DNA of 34,275 bases, taken from positions 1-34,275 of the IMG/VR virus record IMGVR_UViG_3300005441_000021; one strand, 5' to 3'. The notes beneath the pieces were generated by a model. The model saw only the letters and a program-made list of their open reading frames with translations. It was not told where the DNA came from and did no database searches. The position numbers and the translations under genes were made by a program. Positions 3,541-34,102 of the stretch are shown piece after piece (within the stretch, counting starts at the first letter, position 1; the number at the start of each line of letters is the position of its first letter). Source of the DNA: a virus.

Positions 3541-3644
3541 TGTCGCCAGGGCTGGCGTTCAGCCTAATCCCTTTATCGTCGCCGCGTGGTCGAAAGGCTC
3601 ACTATCACGACACCCCACCACCATCTGAGAGGGAGGCCGCTGTC

Positions 3645-4109
3645 ATGGGCAAACGAGGACCAGCACCCAAACCCACCGTGCTACGGCTATTGCACGGTGA
3701 CCGGCCTAATCGCATCAACCATGACGAGCCGACCCCGGCCGACGGTCCACCCGACTGCCCCGACGACGCGTCGGACGACGTGCGCGAAGTGTGGGAATAC
3801 ACCCTGTCACAGCTCATCGTCATGGGCATCGCCACCGCGGCGGACCGGGATGCGCTCCGCTGCTACTGCGAGGCAGTAGTCACCCATCGGAAAGCCTCAG
3901 CGCTACTGAAGACGCCAGCATCGGTGCTCATCCCCGGGGCGATCAAAGGCACCGTTGTCACCAACCCCGCCGTCCGTGTCCAACGTGACGCCGCAACTCT
4001 TGTTCGGGCGTTTGCGCAAGAGTTCGGCTTCACGCCATCGGCGCGCAGCGAGATCCATAAAGGCGGGGCTAGCCATGGCCCGGCAACCGCGCGTTACCTC
4101 AACGGATAA
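3645..4109 (+). CDS. terS: Phage terminase small subunit, P27 family
   Basis: A 154-residue DNA-recognition subunit of the packaging motor. The N-terminus MGKRGPAPKPTVLRLLHG is the P27-family signature (GRPP.PT.L..L.G). A helical middle follows, with LSQLIVMGIATAADRDALRCYCEAV (in two stretches) and a C-terminal ...REFGFTPSAR-type end (here FAQEFGFTPSARSEI). The open frame extends upstream to 3540, but GGGAGG at 3631-3636 sits 8-9 bases before the ATG at 3645 and fixes the start. It overlaps the large subunit by 35 bases. A cos or pac site is expected nearby but cannot be identified by eye. Confidence 0.93.
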   Translation: MGKRGPAPKPTVLRLLHGDRPNRINHDEPTPADGPPDCPDDASDDVREVWEYTLSQLIVMGIATAADRDALRCYCEAVVTHRKASALLKTPASVLIPGAIKGTVVTNPAVRVQRDAATLVRAFAQEFGFTPSARSEIHKGGASHGPATARYLNG

Positions 4110-12916: not shown

Positions 12917-13348
12917 ATGGCCGCCATCGGCACACGCAAGTTGAAGATTCAGGTGGGCACCCCGCCTATTGAGTACAACACCGACGTATCCCGGGTAGAG
13001 GTCACCTCCGGCGAGACAGATTCGGATTTCGTTTCGTTCGCCGATGCGGCGGCCGGAGGCGGCCGGGACTATACGCTGGAATTCACTGCGGTACAGGACG
13101 CCTCGAATGCGTCGCTGTGGGATGAGGTGTGGACCAATGCGGGCGGGGAACTAGACGTGACCGTTGTGCCATACGGCAACGAGGTCCCCACCGTCATGGA
13201 GCCGCATTTCACCATGACCGCCGTGGTATCCGAACCGGACGGCACCCTGCTCGGTGGCGAAGCCGACGCCAGCACCACCGCGAAATTCACGTTCGAATGT
13301 GCATGGAAGCTGACGGAAAAGCCGACCCGAGTGACGACCGGGACATGA
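12917..13348 (+). CDS. Major tail tube protein
   Basis: A 143-residue beta-rich protein in the place of the tail tube gene. The segments SRVEVTSGETDSDFVSFAD, RDYTLEFTAVQDASNASLWD and FTMTAVVSEPDGTLLGGEAD..TTAKFTFECAWKLTEKP (in pieces) follow the common tube plan of strands, an aspartate-rich loop and a final edge strand. AAGGGGAAAGGGG gives a strong ribosome site, expected for an abundant protein. The stop overlaps the next ATG. Confidence 0.8.
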   Translation: MAAIGTRKLKIQVGTPPIEYNTDVSRVEVTSGETDSDFVSFADAAAGGGRDYTLEFTAVQDASNASLWDEVWTNAGGELDVTVVPYGNEVPTVMEPHFTMTAVVSEPDGTLLGGEADASTTAKFTFECAWKLTEKPTRVTTGT

Positions 13349-13716
13349 CCATCCGAATAACCGGGCTCTCCGAACTGAGGCGCGACCTCAAAACACTCGG
13401 CGTTGACCTGGAAGACCTCAAAGTGGCAATGGCGAAGCTCGCCGACATGGGGGCGCAAGCTGCGATCGGGCACGTCCCTAAACGCTCCGGCGCTCTGGCC
13501 GGATCAATCCGTGGTAACCGTGCTAAGTCGAAAGCGGTCGTTACCGCCGGCCGGGGTCGAACTAGCCAGTACGCGGGCATCATTAACTACGGCAGTCCCG
13601 GGCGTGGCATTGCCGCGCAACCCTTCATGCAACAAGCCGATCGGGACGTGGCACCTAAAGTGGTGCCCACACTGACCGCCGACATTGACAGGCTCATCCG
13701 GCAGAGGGGGCTGTGA
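13345..13716 (+). CDS. HK97 gp10-like neck/tail-completion protein
   Basis: A 123-residue member of the HK97 gp10 family: N-terminal ITGLSELRRDLKTLG, a helix ending in AAIGHVPKRSGALAGSIRGN, strand AVVTAGRGRTSQYAGIINYGS, then QPFMQQADRDVAPKVV. The VP..TGxLxxSI-like and YA..x.YG pattern is diagnostic. Family members normally sit before the tail tube gene; here it follows the tube gene. ATGA overlap with the tube stop. Confidence 0.85.
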   Translation: MTIRITGLSELRRDLKTLGVDLEDLKVAMAKLADMGAQAAIGHVPKRSGALAGSIRGNRAKSKAVVTAGRGRTSQYAGIINYGSPGRGIAAQPFMQQADRDVAPKVVPTLTADIDRLIRQRGL

Positions 13717-27478: not shown

Positions 27479-27745
27479 ATGGGCAGCGAAGATACCGACG
27501 GACTGTGGTCGTCAATGACATACGGCGGCCACATCCGGGACGACCGTTGGAAACGCGCCGCTGCCACCGGTGAGGTTGTCGGCACCTGCTTTGTGTGCGG
27601 CGGCTATCTCATCCCGGACGACCCGGGGTGGGCTCGCGCGTCGGTGATTCAATGGTTTGTCGCCCGATGTTTGGACTGCGGGCATGAGGTGGCCGCCCCC
27701 GGCGGAAGGCTTAACGTCCGCAAGCGGGGCCGCTATGGGCCATGA
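27479..27745 (+). CDS. Small zinc-ribbon protein
   Basis: An 88-residue protein with a clear ribbon: CFVCGGYL (38-45) and CLDCGHEV (65-72). Flanks are basic at the C-terminus (RLNVRKRGRYG). The GGGTGA before the ATG is a weak ribosome site. It overlaps the replication initiator start by 11 bases, so it may act with it. Confidence 0.65.
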   Translation: MGSEDTDGLWSSMTYGGHIRDDRWKRAAATGEVVGTCFVCGGYLIPDDPGWARASVIQWFVARCLDCGHEVAAPGGRLNVRKRGRYGP

Positions 27746-28442
27746 GAAATACACGCCCACCTGGGCGCAACGGTTTGTCGACCGGGTGTGGGCGGCGCCG
27801 CCCGGTGAGCTGACGTCGGTGGAAATGCTGATCTTGCTCGCGTATGCCCGGCATGCCCGGCGCGGTGACAGTGCTTGGGTGACCCAACGCCGGTTGATGG
27901 ATCAATGCAAGGTGGTGAGTATGTCGACGCTCGTTGCCGCCCGCCGGGCGGTGGTCAAAAAGGGGTGGTTGGAGCCGATCGGGACGGTGTCGCTCCGGGG
28001 TGGGAAGGCCACCGTTTACCGCCTGTGTCTCCCTTTCGGCGATATGACTGACGTTTCACCGGGGGGCGAAAGCGATACAGCTACCGTATCGCTTTCGTCG
28101 GAAAGCGATACAGAGCGCGTATCGCTTGCAGATGCAAGCGATACAGAGCGCGTATCGCTTTCGCCCGGAAAGCGATACACCGTCCACAGTGAAGCGATAC
28201 AGTTGAAACGTTCAAGCGATACAGCAGCTGTATCGGGACCCTTAGACTCTGCATCCCCCGGAGGGGGGATGCATGCGGGTGCCCGCGCGGACGCAGGCGC
28301 GCGCGAGCGCACACGCGAGGCCGCCACCCTCCGGGCGGCCTCGAACAACCCCGCATCGACAGACGAAAGATCCGCCCGGGCTGAGGCACTCGCCTCGATG
28401 CGGGAAACCGCCGAACGCGCCGAACGGTGGTACCGGACATGA
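27735..28442 (+). CDS. Replication initiator-like HTH protein
   Basis: A 235-residue protein. The N-terminal 100 residues are a winged helix of the HTH_36/DnaD/lambda O type: LTSVEMLILLAYARHA, WVTQRRLMDQCKVVSMSTLVAARRAVVKKGWL (in two runs), LRGGKATVYRL. The middle (about 108-170) is low-complexity (SDT..VSLS units) because the DNA beneath is an iteron array; the end is an Ala/Arg helix. As in lambda O, the origin would lie in the initiator gene itself. The ATG at 27735 is the only start before the domain. Confidence 0.75.
   Translation: MGHEKYTPTWAQRFVDRVWAAPPGELTSVEMLILLAYARHARRGDSAWVTQRRLMDQCKVVSMSTLVAARRAVVKKGWLEPIGTVSLRGGKATVYRLCLPFGDMTDVSPGGESDTATVSLSSESDTERVSLADASDTERVSLSPGKRYTVHSEAIQLKRSSDTAAVSGPLDSASPGGGMHAGARADAGARERTREAATLRAASNNPASTDERSARAEALASMRETAERAERWYRT
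28068..28235. repeat. Iteron/dyad array, putative replication origin
   Basis: Six forward half-sites AAGCGATAC at 28070, 28103, 28136, 28170, 28192 and 28214, and three complements GTATCGCTT at 28086, 28119 and 28152 plus a broken one (GTATCG) at 28230. Forward and reverse sites pair as dyads with a fixed 7-base spacer; dyads repeat every 33 bases, and the later forward sites every 22. The motif falls in all three reading frames of the gene, so it is kept as DNA. A 10-bp hairpin follows at 28250-28273. Confidence 0.85.
28250..28273. repeat. 10-bp hairpin beside the iterons
   Basis: TGCATCCCCC (28250-28259), loop GGAG, GGGGGATGCA (28264-28273). It lies 15 bases past the last iteron within the initiator gene and may be an origin element such as a priming or single-strand site, or only a pause site. 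Confidence 0.5.
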
Positions 28443-29086
28443 CCCGGTGCGCCTGGTGCCCCCGGCCGGCCGACGACGACGGGCCGCTGTGCGCGGACTG
28501 CCGATGGCTGACCCGGCAGGAACTCGCCGCACTCGCGTACGACGTCCGGGACCTGGCCCTGCTCGCGCCCCCGATGCTCGGCCCGCGACAGCGGGTGTCC
28601 GGCACCCATGCCCCCTCGGTGCCGATCGATTTGGGCGCGGACGCGCTGATCCGGGCCATCGTGTGGCGGCTCGGTGTCTGGGAGCCCCCGGTCCGCGAGG
28701 CCGCTGGTCTGCCCCCGGCGCCCGAGTCCGGGATCCGGCCGGTGCGTCTCGCTGACAGGGCCGCAAAGGTCCTCAGCAACCACGTAGGCGAGTTTTTGGG
28801 GCTAGGCCCGATAGAGGGGTACCCCGACGGCCCCGAGGCGCCCTGCGTGGCCCGTAGCGGCCTCTACGGGGCTGCGAGCCTGCGACGCCTCCACACCCGG
28901 TCGCTGGCCGCCCTGGACCGGGCCCCCGCCGCGATCTGCCTCCCGGGCCTGTGCGGATCCTGCGGCGCCCCCGCGCTAACCCAATTGCCAGGAACCGCCC
29001 GAATTGACTGCGGTCACTGCGGGGCGGCTATCTCCAGGCAGGATTACCAAGACAACATTCTCCTGTGTAATCACCTAATCGAGTGA
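28439..29086 (+). CDS. Protein with two zinc ribbons
   Basis: A 215-residue protein. The N-terminal ribbon is CAWC (4-7) and CADC (19-22); a helical middle follows (QELAALAYDVRDLALLAPP, ADALIRAIVWRLGVW, RAAKVLSNHVGEFL), and the C-terminal ribbon is CGSCGAP plus CGHCGAA. Related genes are common in replication regions of Streptomyces and mycobacterial phages, without known function; a helicase-loader or primase-accessory role can only be guessed. ATGA overlap with the initiator indicates co-expression. Confidence 0.65.
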   Translation: MTRCAWCPRPADDDGPLCADCRWLTRQELAALAYDVRDLALLAPPMLGPRQRVSGTHAPSVPIDLGADALIRAIVWRLGVWEPPVREAAGLPPAPESGIRPVRLADRAAKVLSNHVGEFLGLGPIEGYPDGPEAPCVARSGLYGAASLRRLHTRSLAALDRAPAAICLPGLCGSCGAPALTQLPGTARIDCGHCGAAISRQDYQDNILLCNHLIE

Positions 29087-29158
29087 AACCCGATGCGTGG
29101 CACCCCGCCATATCATCACGCACATGTCACAGTCCAGACCCGACCCCAGAAAGGACAC

Positions 29159-29398
29159 ATGATGCCATTCCTGAAAGACCACGTACTCATACCGAGCAGG
29201 CACCCTAACACGCCGATCTACCGCAGCATCCACACCCCCGCCGCAATCCACCAACCGCAATGGACCCTGCACCGGACCGACTGCTTTTACGCCGCCCGCA
29301 CCCTCACATTCGCCAAAACGAACGCACCACTCCGGCAATCCCCGAACACCGTCCCCTGCACCACTTGCCAACCCGACTACCAGGAAGCGAAACCATGA
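29159..29398 (+). CDS. Small hypothetical protein
   Basis: A 79-residue protein starting MMPFLKDHVLIPSRHPN, with WTLHRTDCFYAARTL and VPCTTCQPDY, so His/Cys residues could hold a metal. AAAGGA lies 4-7 bases before the paired ATGs (29159 and 29162). The stop overlaps the next start by 4 bases. Function not recognised. Confidence 0.6.
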   Translation: MMPFLKDHVLIPSRHPNTPIYRSIHTPAAIHQPQWTLHRTDCFYAARTLTFAKTNAPLRQSPNTVPCTTCQPDYQEAKP

Positions 29399-30633
29399 CC
29401 ACCAGCGCCAGCCACCGAAAGCAAACCCTCATCGCCGGCCGAGCCCGCCGCATCGGATGGGGTGTCGAAACCGACGACCAAGGCCGTGAATGGCTGTACC
29501 GCATCCGCCGCCCCGACGGTAAACGCGTCATCCTCACCAAAAGCCCGTCCGACGTGAACTGGGAGGCGGCCGTACTGAAGCGGCTCAACGGCCCCGAACG
29601 GCTCTTCGACCAGGCCGAAGCCGCATGGCAGGAACAACGCCAGGCAACACGCCGGAGAAAACTCGCCGCCGACAAAGCCGCCGCCGACAAAGCCGTTGCC
29701 AAAGCCACCCGAGCCGCGGAAGCCATCACCAGGGCCGCCGGACCCTACGCCATCCGAGACGCCGACCCGGCATGGCTACTCACCCCCCACAACCAACCCG
29801 AAACAAAACTCGTCATCATCGGCCCCGAACTCGCACAGAAAACGCTCGATGCGGTCAACGGCGGCAACCGTCCCTTCCGGCAGCACCGCGCCGACGAATT
29901 CGCCCAGATCATCCGCGATGGCGAATGGGCGGTAACCCACCAGGGTGCGGCGATCGACAACACCGGGACACTTCAAGACGGACAACACCGCTTCGCGGCA
30001 ATCGCTCAAACCGGGGAGCCGCAACACATCCTCGTCAGCGTCGGCATGCCCCCCGAAAACTTCACCCGCCTCGACACCCCCCTTGTCCGGACCGCCCGGG
30101 ACGCACTCGGCATGCGCGGCGAAAAAGACGTCACCACCCTCACGTCCACCGCCCGGCTCATCATCAACTTCGATCGCAACGGCAGAGACCTATACGCACG
30201 CAAAGGCCAAACAAAGATCACCATCGCAACCATCGACAAATTCGTCACCGCCGACGCCGACAACCTCCGCCACGCCGTCCGCCGAACCCGCGAAATCCGC
30301 AACGAAATCAAAATCATCGCATCGCCACTCGCCGCCAGCATCTACCTCATCGGCCGCGCCGCCGGCCACCAACACCCCGACGTCCACCGCTACTTCGACC
30401 ACCTCGCCACCGGAATCGGCATCGACAAAGACGACCCGATCTATCTCCTCCGGCGCCACCTCCTGCGCCGCGACGCCAGCCGCCCCCGGCAATACGCAAC
30501 CCTCGCCTACATCCTCAAAACCTGGAACTACCGCGCCGCCGGACGCAAACCCAAACACCTCACCTGGGGCCCCGACGACGGATTCCCCGCAACCATCATC
30601 GTGCCCCCGCCCACAGACACCCCCCGACGATGA
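29395..30633 (+). CDS. DGQHR-motif (ParB-like style) protein
   Basis: A 412-residue protein. Residues 20-60 form a basic beta unit; 80-115 is an Ala/Lys coiled stretch; the main domain contains NRPFRQHRADEFAQIIRDG, then IDNTGTLQDGQHRFAAIAQTG (in two runs), and VSVGMPPENFTRLDTP..RTARDALGM. The GxLxDGQHRhxA pattern is found in many actinophage and actinobacterial proteins and resembles ParB/sulfiredoxin-like nuclease domains, where the DGxHR loop binds a nucleotide or DNA. The precise activity is unknown. It is linked by ATGA overlaps on both sides. Confidence 0.7.
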   Translation: MTTSASHRKQTLIAGRARRIGWGVETDDQGREWLYRIRRPDGKRVILTKSPSDVNWEAAVLKRLNGPERLFDQAEAAWQEQRQATRRRKLAADKAAADKAVAKATRAAEAITRAAGPYAIRDADPAWLLTPHNQPETKLVIIGPELAQKTLDAVNGGNRPFRQHRADEFAQIIRDGEWAVTHQGAAIDNTGTLQDGQHRFAAIAQTGEPQHILVSVGMPPENFTRLDTPLVRTARDALGMRGEKDVTTLTSTARLIINFDRNGRDLYARKGQTKITIATIDKFVTADADNLRHAVRRTREIRNEIKIIASPLAASIYLIGRAAGHQHPDVHRYFDHLATGIGIDKDDPIYLLRRHLLRRDASRPRQYATLAYILKTWNYRAAGRKPKHLTWGPDDGFPATIIVPPPTDTPRR

Positions 30634-30905
30634 CCACTGAGCCCACCCGGTGCGACAACACCGACACCGGACCCTGCCCCCAGCAAGCCGCCGCCACCCT
30701 CGCCGTACACATCGGCACCCGCCCCGACGCCACGATCGTCACCATGATGAGTCTCTGCATATCCCACCTGCTGACCACATTGATAAGTAACGGCACACCC
30801 CCACACAAAGCCGCGATTATCATCGGTGAAATCGGGCAAAGCATCGCCCGGGACATTCTGGACGACCAGCGACGCGAAAGGTCCGCAGAAAGGCCACCAG
30901 CATGA
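30630..30905 (+). CDS. Small hypothetical protein before Lsr2
   Basis: A 91-residue protein. The N-terminus has two Cys (RCDNTDTGPCPQQAAATL), a possible hydrophobic core (ATIVTMMSLCISHLLTTLI) and a helical end rich in Arg/Glu. The C-x(7)-C...C pattern recalls small actinobacterial proteins of unknown function. ATGA overlaps with both neighbours. Confidence 0.6.
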   Translation: MTTEPTRCDNTDTGPCPQQAAATLAVHIGTRPDATIVTMMSLCISHLLTTLISNGTPPHKAAIIIGEIGQSIARDILDDQRRERSAERPPA

Positions 30906-31243
30906 AAACGGTCACCACCCTCATCACCGACGATTTCACCGGGGCGTCCGGCGCTCAAACCCTGACATTCGCCGTTGACGGACAGACATACGAAATCGAC
31001 CTGTGTGAACCCAACGCAGAGAAGATGCTCGCCGTTCTCACCCCCTACATGGAGAAAGGACGCCGCATCCGGGCCGACAACCACCCCACCCCCCGCAAAC
31101 GCGCCACAACGGCGGCCTCCCACGGCACCCCCACCGACGTACGCCAATGGTGGAAAGACCACCCCGACACCCTGCCCCCCTGGCAAACCCGCGGCGCCAT
31201 CCCCCACGCCGTACTCCGCGCCTACCAACAGGCCACCGGATGA
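30902..31243 (+). CDS. lsr2: Lsr2-family nucleoid protein
   Basis: A 113-residue Lsr2-like protein, slightly below the host length range I know for the family. The dimerisation domain (1-58) has ITDDFTGASGAQTLTFAVDG and YEIDLCEPNAEKM, the family pattern. The C-terminal DNA-binding domain (80-113) has VRQWWKDHPDTLPPWQTRGAIP and HAVLRAYQ, in two stretches. The central R-G-R that inserts in the AT minor groove in host Lsr2 is R-G-A here (97-99). It may silence AT-rich host or phage genes, or act as a dominant-negative partner of host Lsr2. Confidence 0.85.
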   Translation: MKTVTTLITDDFTGASGAQTLTFAVDGQTYEIDLCEPNAEKMLAVLTPYMEKGRRIRADNHPTPRKRATTAASHGTPTDVRQWWKDHPDTLPPWQTRGAIPHAVLRAYQQATG

Positions 31244-31626
31244 CCTGGATCTACCCCGGAGACTCCCAGGTCGTCATCGCGCGCCGGGTCGCCTGGGCAT
31301 ACCGCCAACGACTCGCCGAACTCGCCCCGAAACACTGCGAACAACTCGACACCGTCATGCGCCAACTCGGACAACACTGGGCCGTACCCCGCCCCATCCC
31401 ACCCGACCCCGACACCTGGATAACCGCCACCGACGCCGCCAACCTCGCCGGCGTCAACATCAAAACCATCGGCGAACTCCGCCGCGCCGGGCGCCTCACC
31501 GGACGACGCAAATCCCCCGGCCGATGGGAATACCAGATCTGGGAGATCATGAATCTCGCCACGCGACCCCGCCGCCGACACCGGAAAACCCCGGAAACGG
31601 TAGAAACACCAAAACGCCAGGGATAG
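31240..31626 (+). CDS. HTH (MerR/excisionase-like) DNA-binding protein
   Basis: A 128-residue protein. The N-terminal half is helical (VVIARRVAWAYRQRLAEL, CEQLDTVMRQLG). Residues 66-105 form a winged helix-turn-helix: WITATDAANLAGVNIKTI, ELRRAGRLTGRRKSPGRWEY, of the excisionase/MerR type. The basic tail could add DNA contacts. It overlaps Lsr2 by 4 bases. It could be the excisionase or an early regulator; the position far from the integrase leaves this open. Confidence 0.7.
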   Translation: MTWIYPGDSQVVIARRVAWAYRQRLAELAPKHCEQLDTVMRQLGQHWAVPRPIPPDPDTWITATDAANLAGVNIKTIGELRRAGRLTGRRKSPGRWEYQIWEIMNLATRPRRRHRKTPETVETPKRQG

Positions 31627-31639
31627 ACTTTCGACCGTT

Positions 31640-31803
31640 GGCAGGGGTGCGCCCCCGAGAAGAACCGGGCACGCGCCATCCTCCGCCCGGCTGGCCGGAG
31701 AATGCACAGCCCCGGACAACCCCGGAAACACGCACCCCTGCCACCCCGCCGGAATTGAGGGCACCGGCCCGCGCCGCCCCGCACCCGTAATGCGGGGCGG
31801 CGC
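31640..31803 (+). ncRNA. Structured intergenic region (candidate RNA)
   Basis: GGCAGGGGTGCG (31640-31651) pairs perfectly with CGCACCCCTGCC (31731-31742), enclosing about 80 bases that include a CTCCG...CGGAG stem. Then GCGCCGCCCCGCA (31771-31783), 7-base loop, TGCGGGGCGGCGC (31791-31803). The last hairpin is 20 bases before the HNH start. It may be a terminator or a regulated leader or small RNA. A 47-codon GTG frame (31648-31791) exists but is Pro/Arg-rich and has no ribosome site. Confidence 0.5.
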
Positions 31804-31822
31804 CATTCCCGAAGGAGGACAC

Positions 31823-32197
31823 ATGCCCTCCCACCCCCTCCAACCCTGCGCCACCCCCGGATGCCCCCGCCGCACCACCACCGGCCGATGCGACCAATGC
31901 CGCGACACCCGGCAAACCAACCCGCGACTACGCGTCGAAACCACCGCCGAACGCGGATACGGCTCCCCCTGGCGGCGCCGCCGGCTCGACTACCTCGAAC
32001 AGCACCCGTACTGCACCCTCTGCCCCCGCCTCGCCGACATCCCCGACCACTACCCGATCAGTCGACGCCAACTCGTCGCCCAGGGCGACCCCGACCCCGA
32101 CGCCGGCGAGCACCTCCGCCCGCTGTGCCGACGCTGCCACGACCGGGAAACAGCCCGCCACCAACCCGGCGGATGGTGGCAACAAACCATGCCATAA
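31823..32197 (+). CDS. HNH endonuclease
   Basis: A 124-residue HNH protein. Cys64/Cys67 (YCTLC) and Cys102/Cys105 (LCRRCH) bind structural zinc; the active site has Asp75-His76 (PDHYPISRR) and His106; at the usual Asn position stands His97 (GEHLRPLC). An extra N-terminal Cys set (CATPGCPRR, CDQC) may bind another zinc. In many phages an HNH protein helps the terminase cut DNA and lies near it; here it is in the right arm. GAAGGAGG gives a strong ribosome site. Confidence 0.85.
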   Translation: MPSHPLQPCATPGCPRRTTTGRCDQCRDTRQTNPRLRVETTAERGYGSPWRRRRLDYLEQHPYCTLCPRLADIPDHYPISRRQLVAQGDPDPDAGEHLRPLCRRCHDRETARHQPGGWWQQTMP

Positions 32198-32221
32198 CCG
32201 CAGCACGGGTAAAGGATGACA

Positions 32222-32428
32222 ATGCAAAACCCCGCAGACATTGCCACCATCGTCCGGCAGCTAGAAGAGACCACCCAACGTCTCGACGCGCTACTCCTCA
32301 CCGCATGCCCCGGACCGCACAAGTTCATACAACACCGCGACAACCGGCCACCCTGGTGCAACACCTGTCGATACCAAATCAACGGCCAACCCGTCGGACC
32401 CCCGCAGAACCAAGGCCGGACACCATGA
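32222..32428 (+). CDS. Small hypothetical protein with Cys/His end
   Basis: A 68-residue protein: a helix (DIATIVRQLEETTQRLDALL) followed by CPGPHKFIQHRDNRPPWCNTC, in parts, which could bind one zinc. AAAGG at 32211-32215 favours ATG 32222 over 32216. It overlaps the next start by 4 bases. Confidence 0.6.
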   Translation: MQNPADIATIVRQLEETTQRLDALLLTACPGPHKFIQHRDNRPPWCNTCRYQINGQPVGPPQNQGRTP

Positions 32429-32751
32429 CGACAGACCACATCACCCCCAGTCAAATCCACCAATACGACCAAGGCCACGCCACACGCAGCCACCAAATCG
32501 ATACCCTCGTGGACGCCCTCCGGACCAGCGCCGCCACATGCCGGCCAGAATGCGCCGTCATCGGCATCGCCCACTACCTCGCCGAAGAAATAGACATCGG
32601 CACATGCTCGGAACTACTGGCCTGCGCACTCGAACGCATCGCCACCACCACCCCCGAACCACCCCGATACATCCCCCTCCGCGACGTCCCCCTCACCCCA
32701 CCGAGCGACACCCCCAGCGAGCCACCCCCCACCAGCGACCACACCCCCTAG
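32425..32751 (+). CDS. Small hypothetical protein
   Basis: A 108-residue protein. A polar N-terminus (TPSQIHQYDQGHATRSHQI) leads to a helical unit with two cysteines in AATCRPECAVIGIAHYLAEE and CSELLACAL, then a Pro/Ser/Thr-rich tail. Not recognised. It is the last gene before a strongly structured gap. Confidence 0.6.
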   Translation: MTTDHITPSQIHQYDQGHATRSHQIDTLVDALRTSAATCRPECAVIGIAHYLAEEIDIGTCSELLACALERIATTTPEPPRYIPLRDVPLTPPSDTPSEPPPTSDHTP

Positions 32752-32768
32752 CATCGGCAAACGCAATG

Positions 32769-32878
32769 CGAAGGTTCCCCGGGCACGGAACCCAACACCT
32801 TCGGCACCCATGCCCGAGAACCCGAGCCCACCCGCGTGAGGCGCCCCAACGGAGGGGTACCGGACGGGCGCCTCACGC
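32769..32878 (+). promoter_or_regulatory. Structured leader with alternative hairpins
   Basis: Hairpin A: GGTTCC (32773-32778) / GGAACC (32787-32792). Alternative C: GGTTC..CGGGCA (32773-32785) / TGCCCGAGAACC (32811-32822). They share bases, so only one can form. Then hairpin D, 13 perfect pairs: GCGTGAGGCGCCC (32834-32846) / GGGCGCCTCACGC (32866-32878). The YkgJ-type gene starts 25 bases on. The design recalls an attenuator, but it may simply be terminators. Confidence 0.5.
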
Positions 32879-32903
32879 CACCCCACCCGGCGGAGACCAG
32901 CCC

Positions 32904-33380
32904 GTGAATCGACACCACGACGCACGCCGCAAACTCGCCGACCTGTACGCGCAGATCCCCGACGTCGGATGCCGCGGAAAATGCACAGAATTCTGCACCA
33001 GCTTCGCCCTGCCGCGCCTAGAGAAACGACTCATCCGCCGCGCCACCGGCGTCGACCTCGGACCCACACACAACAAACCCGGCACCCCATGCCCGCTCCT
33101 TACCGCCGACGGCCAATGCAGCGCCTACGACGTGCGGCCCCTCATCTGCCGCATCTGGGGAGCCTCACGCCTCTACCCCTGCCCCCACGGATGCCGGCCG
33201 GCCGGGCCACCCCTCAGCCTGCGCGACACATACCGCCTATTAGCAGAGGCCTACAGCATCAGCGGGCAAGGCGTCACCGCACGCATCGTCGGTGCCGTAG
33301 CAGGCCTAGACGACGACACCCTAGAACGCATCGCTCCAACCGTCCTCGGATTCATCTACGGGACAACTCACCGACGATGA
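32904..33380 (+). CDS. YkgJ-type cysteine-cluster protein
   Basis: A 158-residue protein with eight conserved-looking cysteines: 23, 27 and 31 (CRGKCTEFC), 63, 72 and 82 (CPLL, CSAYDVRPLIC) and 93, 97 (CPHGC). The phrase CSAYDVRPLICR is the family hallmark. The family binds zinc or an iron-sulfur cluster; functions are little known. GTG start with CGGAGA upstream. It stands alone behind a structured leader, at the end of the early operon. Confidence 0.8.
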   Translation: MNRHHDARRKLADLYAQIPDVGCRGKCTEFCTSFALPRLEKRLIRRATGVDLGPTHNKPGTPCPLLTADGQCSAYDVRPLICRIWGASRLYPCPHGCRPAGPPLSLRDTYRLLAEAYSISGQGVTARIVGAVAGLDDDTLERIAPTVLGFIYGTTHRR

Positions 33381-33437
33381 GGCACGGCGACGAATCGCGA
33401 TAGAAGCGATCGATAAGTAAGCAACCCCCGTAAGCCG

Positions 33438-33599
33438 CTAACGACCCCGCTTACCTCTGCCCTTGCCTTTCCCTTTGCCCTTGCCCACAGCGGCGTTACT
33501 GATCTTCGCCGCCCTGGTCTTACTCATCCCCTCACGCTTCAACGCCTCATACACGCGCGGATTCTTAATGCTGCTCCCATGCTGATGACCAGGCACCAT
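33438..33599 (-). CDS. Small basic protein with GK tail
   Basis: A 53-residue protein: SSIKNPRVYEALKREGMSKTRAAKISN, in two runs, followed by a repetitive GKGKGKGRGKRG tail. The IKNP..YEALK..GMSK..AA.I.N pattern occurs in small bacterial and phage proteins (DUF7218-like); the function is unknown. The tail could bind nucleic acid. The frame is open upstream to 33776, but GAGGGGGTGG before the ATG at 33599 and the Gly/Leu-rich upstream part favour the short form. It is leftward, opposite to the early operon. Confidence 0.65.
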   Translation of the reverse strand: MVPGHQHGSSIKNPRVYEALKREGMSKTRAAKISNAAVGKGKGKGKGRGKRGR

Positions 33600-33793
33600 C
33601 ACCACCCCCTCACCCTTTGAACCATGCCGCGCCAACAGCCGGCACAACAACAAGGGGTAGGGGGTATCCCCGCGCCGCACACCCCCCAAAAGAGAAGGGG
33701 TGGGGGGTAGCAGACGTCCCCAACCCCCGCAACCCCACACCCCCCGGCACCGGGGCGGTAGACCCTCCCCCAACACTCGGGCCTACCGCCCCC
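33600..33793. other. GC-rich gap with terminator hairpins
   Basis: No gene accepted. GGGGCGGTAG (33752-33761) pairs with CTACCGCCCC (33783-33792) just behind the stop of the winged-helix gene and should terminate it. ACCCCCC...GGGGGGT also pairs near 33684-33712. The strong C/G runs make chance pairing likely for the latter. Confidence 0.5.
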
Positions 33794-34102
33794 TCACCCC
33801 GGGTGCTCCTCCGCCTCCGCCCGCCACAACTCCCGCAACGCCACACCCGCCGACGTCAACCGGTAATACCGGCGCCGCGCCCGCGCCCCCTGATGCCGAC
33901 TCGTCTCCCTCGTCGGCCCCATCTCCGCCTCGCCGCGCTCCTCAAGCTGTGACACCGCACACCCCTCACCCGCCAACGCGCGCAAGATCTTCGATACAGT
34001 GCTCGAATCCAATCCAGTCGCCGCGGTCACGTCAGAGCCACAACGCCAACGCGTCTCATCCAAAAAAGACAACACAAAAACAGCGCGATTCGTACGACGC
34101 AC
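33794..34102 (-). CDS. Winged-helix transcriptional regulator
   Basis: A 102-residue PadR/MarR-like protein. AVFVLSFLDE is the first helix, DVTAATGLDSSTVSKILRAL the helix-turn-helix, and RARRRYYRLTSAGVALRELW the wing and the next helix (Y-x-L-T-x-x-G is the family mark). A Glu-rich loop lies between. GTG start at 34102 with GGGGGT upstream. It is divergent to a short ORF, so the 34103-34155 gap probably holds both promoters. Could control lysogeny or sense host state. Confidence 0.8.
   Translation of the reverse strand: MRRTNRAVFVLSFLDETRWRCGSDVTAATGLDSSTVSKILRALAGEGCAVSQLEERGEAEMGPTRETSRHQGARARRRYYRLTSAGVALRELWRAEAEEHPG

Follow-up and report, generated by a model that had tools for sequence, protein, structure and literature searches.

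We identified an array of short, mixed-orientation sites inside an initiator-like gene of a virus. This array is very probably a phage replication origin, lambda-like in lying within its own initiator gene and built of the sites of the protein which that gene encodes. This reading builds on the array itself, on the conservation of its DNA across three codon frames in one relative (the viral locus L152) and on the gene neighbourhood. The stretch of DNA that was analysed, here called the window, comprises all 34,275 nucleotides of IMG/VR virus record IMGVR_UViG_3300005441_000021.

A phased array of sites within an initiator-like gene

A word search of the window recovered nine exact AAGCGATAC/GTATCGCTT sites and one broken arm at 28070-28238, and a search of the whole 34,275-base record found no further exact AAGCGATAC copies outside the array. 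Plus-strand copies of AAGCGATAC start at 28070, 28103, 28136, 28170, 28192 and 28214, minus-strand copies lie at 28086, 28119 and 28152, and the tenth, broken arm reads GTATCGGGA (28230-28238). An inverted-repeat test resolved these sites into three perfect dyads, one dyad with a broken arm and two unpaired sites. The dyads take the form AAGCGATAC-N7-GTATCGCTT, with a constant 7-base spacer and a period of 33 bp, and after the third dyad the forward sites step by +34, +22 and +22 bp. The six-base cores at 28173 and 28195 fall in codon frames 0 and 1, respectively, and all remaining forward cores are in frame 2. The array and the gene that holds it are laid out as follows.

27735..28442, plus strand: initiator-like gene (235 amino acids) that holds the array; PHROG matches, L152 orthologue 46% identical
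27762..28034, plus strand: predicted winged-helix DNA-binding domain, residues 10-100 (AlphaFold2 model)
28070..28094, unstranded: dyad 1, AAGCGATAC-N7-GTATCGCTT
28103..28127, unstranded: dyad 2, 33 bp past dyad 1
28136..28160, unstranded: dyad 3, 33 bp past dyad 2; opens the conserved right block; L152 counterpart core at 13392
28170..28178, plus strand: unpaired site, +34; core in frame 0 (KRYT); L152 counterpart core at 13426, frame 0 (KRYG)
28192..28200, plus strand: unpaired site, +22; core in frame 1 (EAIQ); L152 counterpart core TGATAC at 13448, frame 1 (DLIR)
28214..28238, unstranded: final dyad, +22; core in frame 2, right arm broken (GTATCGGGA); L152 counterpart core at 13470, right arm also degenerate (GAATCAGGA)

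An earlier, sequence-only reading of this DNA had described ten copies, nine full and one broken, arranged with a 7-base spacer, a 33-base dyad period and 22-base steps between the last three forward sites, and had placed the sites at 28170 and 28192 (KRYT, EAIQ) in codon frames different from the rest. Our recount and measurements agree with it on each of these points. The forward sites share an 11-bp phase that is strong in the window (R 0.96) and lesser in L152 (R 0.76), and a 10.5-bp phase is absent from the forward sites of both. The 11-bp phase is a mere restatement of the 33/34/22 steps, and in real DNA the sites may lie on one face of the helix.

The array exceeds chance and coding demands

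In 200 dinucleotide shuffles, no 170-bp stretch contained more than one AAGCGATAC, and across 30 shuffles the densest clustering reached by any 9-mer was three copies, against the nine observed. When the peptide was held fixed and codons were re-drawn from the phage's own usage (5,000 trials), the mean was 0.17 copies and the maximum three. The array therefore exceeds both chance and what the peptide demands, and, given the codon re-drawing, is no by-product of the peptide.

A relative retains the DNA while the peptide changes

L152 was reached through a profile built from the nearby RecT gene, which found 80 viral loci. Its replication/recombination module has the same gene order as that of the window. 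Core dyads of the form CGATAC-N7-GTATCG, several with changed bases, lie at 13230, 13263, 13296, 13329, 13359 and 13392, mostly at a spacing of 33 bp, and are followed by sites at 13426, 13448 and 13470 (+34, +22 and +22, in frames 0, 1 and 2). This layout is identical to that of the window cores at 28139, 28173, 28195 and 28217 (frames 2, 0, 1 and 2), and with at most one mismatch allowed per core each sequence has a single instance of this four-site layout, located at the array. The number of dyads varies, from three in the window to six in L152, and the right block is constant.

The two sequences have in common a core of some six bases, (C/T)GATAC. Several forward sites also retain the outer AAG, and most L152 right arms read GTATCGGGT rather than GTATCGCTT. 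At the second unpaired site the peptide EAIQ is replaced by DLIR in L152, whereas the DNA core is kept bar one change. L152 thus keeps the word and its geometry while the peptide changes, which identifies the DNA as the conserved feature in this single orthologue. The sequence-only reading had proposed that the peptide is not what is kept, and had named a relative that keeps the peptide and loses the motif as the finding that would count against it. The comparison with L152 came out the opposite way, with motif, spacing and all three frames kept and the peptide not, and together with the codon re-drawing it bears out that proposal.

Whole-gene protein searches of phages, plasmids and IMG/VR found nothing, nor did a search of phages with the L152 initiator protein, and a profile built from the window and L152 initiators recovered L152 again and nothing else. 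Array DNA had no match in plasmids and phages. Dyad-pattern scans of IMG/VR and genomes returned mostly single dyads, with no other array of the same word among the matches listed. A scan for the 22-bp row (GCGATAC / YGATAC / GCGATAC) gave no match with a pattern that demands 7-base outer cores and perhaps excludes the window's own record. Locus L244, which has a 77%-identical exonuclease, gave no initiator match; its contig stops soon past the exonuclease.

The gene that carries the array and its neighbourhood

The protein encoded at 27735-28442 weakly matches phrog_391 'replication initiation O-like' (E 2.4e-5) and phrog_270 'replication initiation protein' (E 0.0013), and its Pfam HTH_36 match is below cut-off. 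The L152 initiator has no PHROG match at 0.01. An AlphaFold2 model of modest confidence, built from two sequences (mean pLDDT 56), places helices at residues 10-19, 28-43, 47-57 and 63-75, the last of them the predicted recognition helix, and strands at 79-88 and 91-100, with pLDDT mostly 60-80, and shows one winged helix. The stretch encoded by the array (residues ~109-174) is mostly modelled at very low confidence, and helices are predicted at the C-terminus. Foldseek gave no significant match to the model, and a structural second look with VIA returned generic winged helices, all below Z 8, including one for RctB initiator domain 1, whose Z of 6.6 is within the range of a merely common arrangement. 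The placement of an initiator winged helix ahead of the array, which the sequence-only reading had suggested, is thus favoured by a predicted domain at residues 10-100 and by weak replication-initiation PHROG matches.

The neighbours of the initiator gene encode an exonuclease, a RecT-like annealing protein, a RusA-like resolvase, an HNH nuclease and an Lsr2-like protein. Immediately downstream lies a candidate partner of the initiator, of which L152 has a 53%-identical counterpart after its own initiator. In a lambda O-type origin this position belongs to a P-like helicase-loader gene, a role that the candidate partner may share.

28427..29086, plus strand: next gene, candidate initiator partner; phrog_1568 'DNA binding protein', E 2.4e-14

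The record also encodes a tyrosine integrase, a large terminase and a portal protein, and a small terminase gene (phrog_83) lies beside the large terminase gene at 3642-4106, distant from the array. The neighbouring genes that were scanned include no ParB-type Pfam match. The RecT relatives include many from actinophages, besides a group from Salinibacter phages; the Lsr2-like protein and the many actinophage RecT relatives suggest that the host is actinobacterial.

Two further genes were noted in the window. A 457-residue protein encoded at 29260-30633 matches PHROG 5931 (unknown function; E 8e-50) and has no Pfam match at 0.1, and a C-5 cytosine DNA methylase gene (Pfam DNA_methylase, E 4e-34) lies at 264-1409, close to the record's left end.

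Flanks, stability and skew

No AT-rich tract adjoins the array in the window by stability and GC profiles, and GC content reaches 80-85% in the right flank. The least stable segment near the array lies inside its right block and would be the best candidate for first melting. In L152, an AT-rich 40-mer lies at 13583, about 90 bp beyond the array.

28195..28234, unstranded: 40-mer of lowest stability up to 200 bp from the array (nearest-neighbour profile)
28250..28273, plus strand: strong C/G hairpin immediately past the array, then a GC-rich tract; both also in L152 at ~13505-13533

The cumulative GC skew, which had been expected to turn at the array, shows no turn there and steepens about 0.7-1 kb downstream. 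An abrupt strand asymmetry occupies about 28900-34000 of the window, where GC skew is about -0.2 to -0.4 and AT skew mostly +0.3 to +0.5; L152 does not show a comparable skew.

A probable origin within the initiator gene and its alternatives

Several lines of evidence favour the interpretation of the array as a replication origin. It goes beyond both chance and peptide needs, and in L152 the core word and its +34/+22/+22 spacing persist although the peptide has changed. The gene has replication-initiation family matches and a predicted winged helix, and it sits in a replication/recombination module whose order is the same in L152. Arrays of other words lie within replication-initiation-family genes of further phages that have similar modules, lambda provides an embedding of the same kind, and helical phasing matters in iteron plasmids (PMC4980987). 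The interpretation is weakened by its reliance on one orthologue, by weak family matches, the L152 initiator without a PHROG match and a mean pLDDT of 56, and by a window with no AT-rich tract, no turn of the GC skew and no detected homology to lambda O.

In the mechanism that we propose, initiator molecules would bind CGATAC-type half sites, pairwise on the dyads of 33-bp period and, along the 34/22/22 block, as a row in phase with the helix. The bound initiators would form a complex resembling the lambda O-some, which would melt DNA close by; the likeliest place is the less stable right-hand portion of the array (~28195-28234). Helicase could then be recruited by the C-terminal part of the initiator and/or by the product of the next gene. 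The protein stretch encoded by the array would presumably serve as a flexible linker that tolerates any peptide the DNA dictates.

An array of binding sites could instead act solely in regulation, with the sites serving as operators or a repressor sink for the protein's own operon and replication starting elsewhere. The protein resembles a generic winged-helix DNA-binding protein and dyads are a typical operator shape, but the array starts more than 330 bp inside the gene, which is not a promoter position, and nine or ten phased sites are more than an operator requires. The matched families are moreover replication initiators, and similar embedded arrays elsewhere also lie in initiator genes, so that regulation as the sole function is improbable; autoregulation may accompany origin function. 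Partition (parS-like) and packaging (pac/cos-like) sites can likewise be repeat arrays, and one of these could lie in the gene by happenstance. We regard this as very improbable: an encoded tyrosine integrase makes partition of a free prophage unnecessary, the ParB-type scan of the neighbouring genes was negative, and the small terminase gene is far off the array.

Two other explanations place selection on the gene's products rather than on protein-binding DNA. The array transcript folds strongly (-89 kcal/mol) and every dyad could form a stem, as would be expected if the dyads acted in mRNA through attenuation, stability or translation control. Yet the sites at 28170 and 28192 lack a partner to pair with and are conserved in position in L152, and the outer three bases of the L152 right arms do not pair with the left arms (GGGT versus AAG). 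The word is retained and compensating pairs are not, which makes RNA hairpins a highly improbable basis for the array. A selected or duplicated peptide repeat (SDT...VSL), with the DNA word as by-product, would fit the in-frame 33-bp units, which encode 11-residue repeats that slippage or duplication could spread, and the differing copy number of dyads in the window and L152. However, codon re-drawing never approached the observed count, the frame 0 and frame 1 sites encode unrelated peptides (KRYT and EAIQ) at which L152 retains the DNA and not the peptide, and the region is modelled with the very low confidence of a disordered linker. The chance that the peptide is the selected feature is close to negligible.

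Comparison with lambda and iteron plasmids

As a probable replication origin, the array shares several properties with that of lambda, where iterons with dyad symmetry also lie within the initiator gene and an N-terminal DNA-binding part (predicted in the window protein) also precedes the array. The annotated lambda iterons start at 39034, 39054, 39078 and 39101, which places them in gene O frames 0, 2, 2 and 1. Lambda thus already provides an origin whose sites disregard the codon frame of the initiator gene around them, and the three-frame embedding that the sequence-only reading had singled out, although confirmed, is not special. Iteron number is also variable in this group, as the lambda and Stx origins combine four and six inverted-repeat iterons, respectively, with an AT-rich tract (PMC7466680).

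The differences concern word, spacing and flanks. Lambda iterons have another word and are spaced by 20, 24 and 23 bp, in contrast to 33, 33, 34, 22 and 22 bp in the window, which in addition has separate unpaired sites. The AT-rich tract beside the lambda iterons has no counterpart beside the window array. BLASTP detected no homology between the window initiator and lambda O, and the two proteins both match PHROG 391 through different halves. Because the AT-rich tract is missing and O homology was undetected, we do not file the array as a lambda O-type origin, although it would presumably function much as lambda ori does. The proposed match to a lambda O-type arrangement therefore holds for an array of dyads inside an initiator gene and fails for the tract, and BLASTP does not extend it to the protein. 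What differs from lambda is a variable number of 33-bp dyads joined to a fixed 34/22/22 block, without an adjoining AT-rich tract.

The R6K and pPS10 iterons are 22 bp long, and cooperative binding to plasmid iterons is lost when they are displaced by half a helical turn (PMC4980987). Iteron plasmid origins carry direct repeats of 17-22 bp, located outside or beside rep. The likeness in length is confined to the 22-bp steps of three sites in the window. The plasmid Rep proteins have two winged-helix domains (PMC4980987), whereas our model shows one, and iteron plasmid origins have a DUE and in several cases DnaA boxes, whereas a DUE was not found beside the window array.

Arrays in initiator genes of other phages

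Other loci of the RecT set, and named phages, also have arrays of mixed orientation, located within genes with replication-initiation PHROG matches. Gordonia phage Wizard, Thermobifida phage P1312 and the Streptomyces phage SV1 group likewise carry an array in an initiator-family gene within a similar module, of the exonuclease/RecT or ERF type. Their words differ from that of the window (AACCCTTC or ACCCTTCC in the Wizard and P1312 types, GGGCCGGA in the SV1 type, and TGGACCGC in locus L006), their spacing is mostly different, and tblastn found no homology to the window initiator.

Closer geometries occur with unrelated words in initiator-type winged-helix genes of three IMG/VR contigs, L202, L190 and L155 (TGGGGGTC, TGGGGATC and GTGCTGCA, respectively). 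L202 combines dyads with 22- and 22-bp steps as in the window, L190 has steps of 31, 22, 22 and 21 bp, and L155 has steps of 33 and 22 bp. The L190 and L202 arrays differ in occupying the final part of the initiator gene and extending past it. The arrays span 11097-11343 in L202, 9718-9895 in L190 and 8869-9064 in L155, and some cross codon frames. These cases indicate that the design is not unique to the window phage. The sequence-only reading knew of no described phage origin that combines dyads with a 22-bp row; a search of the open literature, which covered few subscription journals and is weak evidence, found no paper describing this layout, but L202 has it with another word.

This survey was informal, using a simple k-mer counter, examples picked after inspection and geometry without a null comparison, so the recurrence of 22- and 33-bp steps is suggestive only. 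It hints that the pairing of 33-bp dyads with a 22-bp row reappears elsewhere under other words. It is conceivable, though rather doubtful, that many phages share a two-part origin of 33-bp in-frame dyads and a fixed 22-bp row, in which the word is swapped along with the winged helix and the spacing is kept. The dyad row could in that case grow or shrink without breaking the gene, and the helix-phased 22-bp row would ignore the reading frame. If this recurrence is true, origins could be predicted across many actinophage genomes that are unannotated, and the word inside an initiator gene could reveal the specificity of the winged helix which that gene encodes. The window array is itself a clear natural case of DNA geometry overriding coding, with the same word and spacing in three frames and a protein that changes.

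Another array came from loci L241 (6006-6213) and L248 (IMGVR_UViG_3300029305_004462, 380-2926), where TGATACC-N5-GGTATCA dyads recur every 33 bp; the same array is present in L242. We rejected a small-terminase identity for the L241 array gene, as its full frame encodes an 848-residue protein with weak DUF5906 and DNA-primase matches. The dyads (core GATACC-N5-GGTATC) lie near the start of this protein, just past its N-terminal helix-turn-helix-like start, and apparently represent an independent case of dyads within a replication-type gene.
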